DNA of 64,000 nucleotides from Bacteroidota bacterium (lineage in GTDB: Bacteria > Bacteroidota > Bacteroidia > Bacteroidales > UBA12077), in contig JAHLLG010000002.1 of the NCBI GenBank assembly GCA_020444275.1, forward strand, positions 669,991-733,990. The letters are read 5' to 3'. The position numbers and the translations under genes are program-made. A model generated the notes under the pieces. It did not search any database. It was not told the DNA's origin and worked only from the letters and a program-made list of their open reading frames with translations. How positions within the stretch are numbered: position 1 is the stretch's first letter; every line of letters starts with the position of its first letter. This document shows, one piece after another, positions 9,755 through 10,578 of the stretch.

Positions 9755-9787
9755 AATCCTGTCAGGGTTCAAAACCCTGACAGGATT
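9755..9787. repeat. REP-like palindrome, copy 1
   Basis: A perfect 15-bp stem: AATCCTGTCAGGGTT (9755-9769), loop CAA, inverse arm 9773-9787. It lies 19 bases after the Lrp/AsnC stop and is followed by T residues, so it can double as a terminator. All 33 bases are identical to the copy inside the transposase gene at 10142-10174. Confidence 0.9.
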
Positions 9788-9810: not shown

Positions 9811-9842
9811 AACCTGTCAGGTCTTTTGAGACCTGACAGGTT
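9811..9842. repeat. REP-like palindrome, copy 2
   Basis: A perfect 14-bp stem: AACCTGTCAGGTCT (9811-9824), loop TTTG, inverse arm 9829-9842. It shares the CCTGTCAG/CTGACAGG core with copy 1 but has a different apical part. A GTAG/GGAG-like string (9792-9798) lies between the two palindromes; similar tetranucleotides mark REPs recognised by RAYTs in enterobacteria, though relevance here is unproven. Confidence 0.85.
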
Positions 9843-9919: not shown

Positions 9920-10534
9920 ATGCAAATCATTGAACCCGGAAGGTATTATCATATTTATAACAGAGGTATAAACTCTTGTAATTTATTCGAGGAAAACACA
10001 AATTATGAGCATTTTTTACGTTTGTACGAAAAATATATTCACCCTATAGCCGATACGTATGCATGGTGTTTAATGAAAAATCACTTTCATTTTTTGGTTC
10101 GTATTAAAGAAGAAGAAGAAGTGAATTTGAATGATTTACCTAATCCTGTCAGGGTTCAAAACCCTGACAGGATTTCTAAAAATATAAAACAACCTCATTT
10201 ATATTTTTCACACCTATTTAATGCATATACACAGGCTTTTAACAAAAAGTACAAACGTCACGGCAGTTTATTCGAACGCCCTTTTAAAAGAATACTTATA
10301 GAGAATGAATTGTACTTGAAATACCTAGTTTATTATATTCACCATAATCCGGTTAGTCATGGTTTTGTTGATGATATGTTAGAATATCCCTGGAGTTCAT
10401 ATTTAACCATTGCTTCGCCAAAGAAAACAAATTTAAAGCGAAAAGAAGTAATTCGTTGGTTTGATGATCTGGAAAACCTGAAAACCTTTCATCAACAGGA
10501 ACATGATTTGGATAAAATAAAACATTTAATTTGA
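9920..10534 (+). CDS. REP-associated tyrosine transposase (RAYT, IS200-like Y1 family)
   Basis: A 204-residue single-strand transposase-like endonuclease. The HUH motif is H55-F56-H57 in LMKNHFHFLV, and the probable catalytic tyrosine is Y139 in YYIHHNPVSHG. GSLFERPFKR and the final YPWSSY are also typical of the family. RAYTs are usually single-copy and are thought to mobilise REP palindromes. Here two palindromes lie upstream, one immediately downstream (10539-10578) and one inside the gene (10142-10174), where it encodes residues 75-85 (NPVRVQNPDRI) in the acidic linker after the HUH core. All family motifs remain, so the gene is probably functional despite the insertion. It interrupts the catabolic island. 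Confidence 0.92.
   Translation: MQIIEPGRYYHIYNRGINSCNLFEENTNYEHFLRLYEKYIHPIADTYAWCLMKNHFHFLVRIKEEEEVNLNDLPNPVRVQNPDRISKNIKQPHLYFSHLFNAYTQAFNKKYKRHGSLFERPFKRILIENELYLKYLVYYIHHNPVSHGFVDDMLEYPWSSYLTIASPKKTNLKRKEVIRWFDDLENLKTFHQQEHDLDKIKHLI
10142..10174 (+). repeat. REP-like palindrome, copy 3, in frame inside the RAYT gene
   Basis: All 33 bases are identical to copy 1 (15-bp perfect stem, CAA loop). It starts exactly at codon 75 of the transposase gene and spans 11 codons without a stop. One of the three forward frames of this repeat has a TGA, so the observed frame is one of two that allow read-through. Confidence 0.92.
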
Positions 10535-10538
10535 TAAA

Positions 10539-10578
10539 AATAACCCTGTCAGAGTTTAAAAACTCTGACAGGGTTATT
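10539..10578. repeat. REP-like palindrome, copy 4, probable bidirectional terminator
   Basis: A perfect 19-bp stem AATAACCCTGTCAGAGTTT (10539-10557) with a 2-base loop and inverse arm 10560-10578. It lies 5 bases after the RAYT stop and 9 bases from the convergent ygfK stop, so it probably terminates both. The core CCTGTCAG is shared with copies 1-3. Confidence 0.85.

Follow-up and report, generated by a model that had tools for sequence, protein, structure and literature searches.

In-frame palindromes recur in one loop of a clade of RAYT-like transposase genes from Bacteroidota

The window, by which we mean the whole stretch of 64,000 nucleotides analyzed here (contig JAHLLG010000002.1 of a Bacteroidota bacterium), contains a REPtron-like unit that consists of a RAYT/TnpA-REP-type gene and three flanking copies of a palindrome, a further copy of which lies inside the gene. 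The gene (9920..10534, forward strand) was characterized from its ORF, an NCBIfam profile, an AlphaFold2 model and Foldseek, and is RAYT/TnpA-REP-like, encoding a protein of 204 residues that is predicted to be an HUH-Y1 single-strand nuclease with the fold of TnpA-REP. The NCBIfam profile NF047646 (REP_Tyr_transpos) matches the protein weakly, with an E-value of 4.5e-15 and 55.8 bits, under the 80-bit cut-off of the profile, and a Pfam search returned no match at E 0.001. The predicted model, based on 42 aligned proteins, has a mean pLDDT of 91.2, and its top structural match is 4er8, the E. coli TnpA-REP in complex with a REP hairpin (E 3.8e-8, TM 0.57 by query and 0.70 by target), followed by the IS608 transposase. 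A PDB search by sequence alone retrieved 4er8 only at E 0.22, and the two proteins are 14% identical. The HUH motif (H55-F56-H57; 10082..10090, forward strand) precedes the catalytic tyrosine Y139 (10334..10336, forward strand), and none of H55, H57 and Y139 varies across the 42 aligned proteins, which include that of the window.

The region between H57 and F96 (10091..10204, forward strand), which leads from strand β3 to helix αC and is referred to below as the linker, is the low-confidence part of the model, with block means of pLDDT of 75 for residues 71–80 and 66 for residues 81–90. The window protein has LFE where WQ is expected, as well as the motifs YIHHNP and NHFH and a C-terminal SS. 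Across about 167 aligned rows, LFE is found in 70 and LFQ in 23, and YIHNNP, which fits YIxNNP, is found in 63. The gene is present as a single copy in its own genome, where five other matches are at most 57% identical. The element does not fit an IS200/IS605 insertion sequence, as the genome lacks near-identical copies of the gene.

The in-gene palindrome (10142..10174), defined by sequence and folding, is a perfect palindrome of 33 bp with a 15-bp stem and a 3-nt loop. It starts at the first base of codon 75 and encodes, in frame, codons 75–85 (NPVRVQNPDRI). Sequence comparison identified an identical palindrome upstream of the gene (9755..9787); the two copies, 354 nt apart, agree over all 33 nt and at 97% over an extended 38 nt. 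Pattern searches located a second upstream palindrome of the family (9811..9842) and a downstream one (10539..10578), 4 nt past the stop codon; the coordinates of all four palindromes are given without strand. The original prediction had described a 33-base repeat identical to that at 9755–9787, which adds 11 residues from codon 75 without a stop, is open in two of the three reading frames, and sits just after the HUH motif such that the catalytic residues are retained. The ORF, the sequence comparison, the frame check and the invariance of H55, H57 and Y139 bear out each of these points. The window contains the 8-mer CCTGTCAG 8 times, where 0.59 would be expected, and the 28-nt pattern of the family palindrome has four matches (two sites, both strands), compared to 0.00 in shuffled sequences. 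The single-strand folding energy of the in-gene palindrome is −15.9 kcal/mol (shuffled mean −3.1), and the corresponding mRNA hairpin is predicted to be strong (z −6.3).

We searched the genome (4.2 Mb, 10 contigs) for the exact family pattern, CCTGTCAG(N4-30)CTGACAGG, which has nine sites, four of them at the window locus. The 27-nt core of the in-gene copy is found genome-wide only at its two window positions, and the reverse orientation of the pattern gives a single genome site, which covers portions of two palindromes of the window. The other five sites (L006–L010) are intergenic as far as ORFs tell; a 107-residue ORF that starts within the palindrome of L010 was taken as spurious. Thus, a genome search for other copies within open frames, which the original prediction had called for, found the exact pattern in no other plausible gene. 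Two further RAYT relatives were noted in the same genome. One (L124; G000:C4:120596-121159) is interrupted by stop codons and carries in its linker a perfect palindrome of another type, for which the pattern used gave no second site in the genome. The other (L141; G000:C10:199153-199347) is a short fragment that ends in the linker with yet another type of palindrome.

To place the window gene among its homologues, matches were drawn from the relatives of the window bacterium (35 of 59 genomes) and from its class (57 of 395 genomes at E 1e-25), both including its own genome, as well as from named genomes (72 loci). The survey comprised 217 loci, which represent part of the matches among relatives and class; 208 of these had a tblastn hit and gave 186 distinct ORFs, 167 of which were at least 150 residues long. 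An in-gene palindrome was called at a score of at least 11 and a G+C content of at least 25% inside the core gene. By this threshold, a strong palindrome is present in the core gene of 35 of the 167 distinct ORFs, and 34 of the 35 are located in the linker, the total length of which over all surveyed genes is 17,349 nt. Codon-shuffled controls of all genes contained 0, 3, 0, 0 and 0 palindromes in five rounds. The other 133 linkers are without a palindrome at this threshold; among them are the linkers of two large sets of Flavobacterium genes, even though palindromes flank those genes. The truncated genes L126, L130 and L137 are counted among the 34, and the short or broken L124, L134, L141 and L143, which have a palindrome near the linker, are not. 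The 34 in-gene palindromes fall into 13, 19 and 24 groups at 80%, 85% and 90% ungapped identity, respectively, where one-base length variants are placed in separate groups. Identity groups were preferred to type labels from a motif list, which are rough and in some cases wrong (L185 was labelled through its loop bases).

At a more stringent score of at least 13, palindromes were found in 31 of the 167 RAYT linkers, compared to five located away from the ends of neighbouring ORFs of at least 150 residues (317 kb in total). One of these five again falls within a RAYT linker, in a second such gene (L211), and two are in a single hsdR-like gene. This hsdR-like type I restriction gene (L029:2274-3437) adjoins a RAYT gene, and its two in-frame palindromes share both the type of that RAYT's palindromes and the frame in which the RAYT reads them. 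In ten other relatives (L050, L063, L064, L068, L070, L071, L084, L085, L086 and L128), the RAYT frame is open beyond its 5′ end and takes in the upstream palindrome, so that translation from an earlier start could cover it as well.

The survey bears on the remainder of the original prediction, in which a REP-like palindrome had been inserted in frame into its probable own transposase gene. That reading holds for the family as a whole. Forms with and without the palindrome at residues 75–85 both exist among the homologues, and the close homologues do not uniformly encode the same residues with non-palindromic codons. Insertion of a palindrome into its own gene is kept as the reading, but as a recurrent feature of the family and not as a single event. 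The suggestion that the repeat lands in genes at large as a neutral insertion is weakened, as no other plausible gene of this genome contains the exact pattern and the copies in relatives are concentrated in RAYT linkers.

Palindromes are found within 500 nt of the gene in 120 of the 167 relatives, and their density is 6.1 per kb in the 50 nt nearest the gene and falls to 0.37 at 200–400 nt and 0.08 at 1.5–2.5 kb; their spread is therefore local. Among 154 genes with enough flanking sequence, a palindrome is close by on both sides in 49, on one side in 49, and on neither in 56. For the 22 genes that have both in-gene and flanking palindromes, the mean best identity of the in-gene palindrome is 0.83 to its own flanks and 0.61 to the flanks of other genes, and none of 20,000 permutations was as good. 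The gene's own flanks ranked first in 12 of the 22 cases and among the top three in 17, and five in-gene palindromes (L130, L189, L178, L176 and L107) are clearly unlike their own flanks. Because related genes share palindrome types, we repeated the permutation test within one clade that has several types, using nine of its 11 palindrome-bearing genes (two had no usable flank); 2 of 20,000 permutations matched the observed value. In-gene copies are mismatch-free in 19 of 34 cases, compared to 115 of 211 for flanking ones. No clear motif was found around 89 flanking 33-mers, where only A-rich 3′ sides were seen, and GT[AG]G was present at the foot of 4 of 159 flank palindromes, compared to 10 of 159 at a control position.

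The location of the palindrome within the linker is not constant. Its centre lies 11–49 residues after H57, and a fixed, conserved insertion site was rejected on this account. The codon phases of the centres of the 30 odd-length palindromes are distributed as 22/7/1, where 14.5/8/7.5 would be expected if open frames were equal; this bias is suggestive of selection, but falls short of proof since the genes are related. A gene tree was calculated from the 165 sequences that passed the gap filter, and changes were counted on 163 genes (32 with a palindrome; L039 and L041 were left out). The presence of the palindrome changes at least 19 times on this tree, compared to a mean of 29.6 for shuffled states, which indicates many gains or losses together with some inheritance. 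The frame changes at least nine times, and the groups at 80% identity at least 17 times.

Two relatives from the genus of the window bacterium, L126 and L134, carry a palindrome whose spacing and frame match those seen in the window gene, such that the identity between the in-gene copy and that at 9755–9787 is no proof of a recent landing. Between the window and L126, 28 of 32 aligned palindrome bases are identical, 25 of them consecutively, compared to 404 of 566 bases (0.71) in the rest of the gene. The corresponding values are 25 of 32 and 312 of 464 (0.67) for L134, and 29 of 33 and 423 of 567 (0.75) for L115. In L134, where pairing was read by eye, one paired change (A-T for G-C) costs an amino acid and one pair is broken. 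In-gene palindromes are also found in broken genes, namely L126 and, in the window genome itself, L124. A clean empty site between close relatives was not found.

Degenerate forms of the palindrome occur in several linkers. Those of L118, L043 and L130 are longer and contain two palindrome-like stretches in tandem and in frame (with peptides such as NSDRSKDSVRF and DLSEFEKPERV). The linkers of L116, L117 and L018 encode similar peptides with weaker pairing and look like decayed palindromes. Weak linker palindromes (score 8–10) were found in 13 genes, compared to about seven in shuffled sequences; as this excess is modest, the argument for decay depends on few cases. In L019, L093, L121, L123, L125 and others, the linkers were aligned by MAFFT to palindrome-like ones, and the linker of this clade may also be palindrome-derived. 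No flanking palindromes were found within 500 nt of L019, L093, L121, L123, L125 and L133, which have a long conserved linker and have possibly been freed from palindrome mobility.

We think that the cognate palindrome has probably entered its own mobiliser gene repeatedly, at a loop that tolerates it, to be inherited there and eventually to decay. The encoded protein would mobilise the palindrome, whose copies would spread locally around the RAYT gene and at times land in the gene itself. Extra residues would be tolerated in the loop that joins the HUH strand to helix αC, and insertions that leave the frame open could survive and pass to descendants, as the counterparts of the window copy in two other species of the genus may illustrate. 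Old in-gene copies would then decay into ordinary linker sequence, of which the degenerate forms are the likely products, and retention would reflect tolerance instead of a selected function. Local spread and a tolerant loop explain most of the palindrome excess in RAYT linkers. Counted against repeated entry and decay are the five of 22 in-gene palindromes unlike their flanks, the small share of genes that have a palindrome nearby on both sides (49 of 154, with none on either side in 56), and the palindrome of L126, which is better conserved than its gene. It is quite improbable that one ancient in-gene palindrome has been overwritten repeatedly by flanks of the same locus, in a form of concerted evolution by gene conversion and with no new insertion. 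Conversion would suit the exact identity to the copy 354 nt upstream, the spacing and frame common to three members of the genus, and identity groups that differ between relatives with a mostly constant frame, but not the spread of the centre over 11–49 residues after H57 or the frequent differences between in-gene and flank copies in the loop and outer bases, and linkers with two palindromes require at least one added copy. We give next to no credence to an ancestral coding sequence that was palindromic by chance or codon bias: it can draw on nothing beyond inheritance inside the genus, whereas copies occur outside the gene and relatives have other palindromes or none. Chance and codon bias were rejected in view of the codon shuffles, set against the 35 palindromes observed, and of the 8-mer and 28-nt excess in the window.

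Tolerance alone may be insufficient, because palindromes are present in 31 of 167 RAYT linkers compared to only five in 317 kb of neighbouring ORFs. This excess, together with the perfection of in-gene copies and their match in type to the flanks, leaves room for a selected role. Even so, we regard it as rather unlikely that the palindrome is maintained as a self-target, whether because the protein acts on its own gene or mRNA by binding or cleavage or because the mRNA hairpin curbs translation, with the in-gene type changing along with the flanks. Such a role would account for the type match that persists inside one multi-type clade, for in-gene copies as perfect as flanking ones, for the strong mRNA hairpin, and for a palindrome that outconserves the rest of the gene between the window and L126, which is less clear for L134 and L115; the paired change in L134, made at the cost of an amino acid, points the same way, although it stands beside one broken pair. 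It is at odds with the 133 linkers that have no palindrome, those of the two large Flavobacterium groups with flanking palindromes among them, with the variation of site and frame, and with the palindromes carried by the broken genes L126 and L124. Unlikely, too, is an elaborated form of this idea, in which selection keeps the in-gene palindrome for self-recognition, just ahead of the helix that in E. coli TnpA-REP reads the hairpin. The enzyme or the mRNA hairpin would in this way limit its own activity, the in-gene copy would be retyped as specificity changes, and in older lineages (L019, L093, L121, L125 and relatives, which lack flanking palindromes) the palindrome-derived peptide would have become a conserved part of the protein.

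In-frame REPs within tnpA-REP genes are already known from other RAYT subclasses. According to the available part of Quentin 2018 (PMC6006769), they lie generally between HuH and Y and are unique to subclass 2.4 (RAYT group 4), which is described as having WQ, YIxNNP and REPs with a GT[AG]G foot; REP insertion is also described there for some members of subclasses 2.7 and 2.8. The window clade resembles subclass 2.4 in its in-frame palindromes between HuH and Y (in 34 of 167 genes, each time within the linker), but the window protein has LFE instead of WQ, YIHHNP and a C-terminal SS, and the clade shows no enrichment of GT[AG]G. Since the YIHNNP of many relatives fits YIxNNP, the motif difference rests on WQ. 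Judged against its published description, subclass 2.4 was not accepted as the place of the gene, which lacks WQ and whose palindromes have no GT[AG]G feet. Subclass 2.6 (RAYT group 5) is described in the same source as found in Bacteroidetes, with atypical flanking structures that lack GT[AG]G and have copies elsewhere in the genome, YIH[QN]NP, and an SS in a C-terminal extension. Several of these features fit the window clade, namely the Bacteroidetes hosts, flanking palindromes without GT[AG]G that have copies elsewhere in the genome, YIH[QN]NP (in the family) and SS, but the window protein has LFE in place of WQ, and NHFH. Placed by the published subclass descriptions, the clade seems to fit subclass 2.6 better than 2.4. 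The available part of PMC6006769 contains no mention of REPs inside 2.6 genes, and no earlier report of in-gene palindromes in the window clade was found in the literature searched.

The E. coli REP, as described in the available part of PMC8266576, has a GTAG foot and a bulge, and helix α3 of E. coli TnpA-REP contacts the hairpin; this helix probably corresponds to that following the linker in the window protein. Intragenic REPs in assorted genes are discussed in the available part of PMC3733652, which cites the in-frame Rickettsia palindromic elements (RPE). As far as that account goes, the palindromes described here are similar in being in frame within protein genes; unlike those elements, which occur in varied and unrelated genes, almost all of them were found in the cognate transposase gene.

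What appears to be new is that a RAYT clade whose REPs lack GT[AG]G recurrently carries cognate palindromes inside its genes; most of these match their flanks, and in some lineages they seem to be on the way to becoming linker by decay. The presence of a mobiliser's own palindrome in its own gene is thus not confined to the RAYT subclass to which it had been called unique. The 34 natural cases, with many palindrome types, make it possible to test directly whether such copies persist as tolerated debris or serve as a built-in brake; they also suggest a route by which non-coding repeats become a protein linker.
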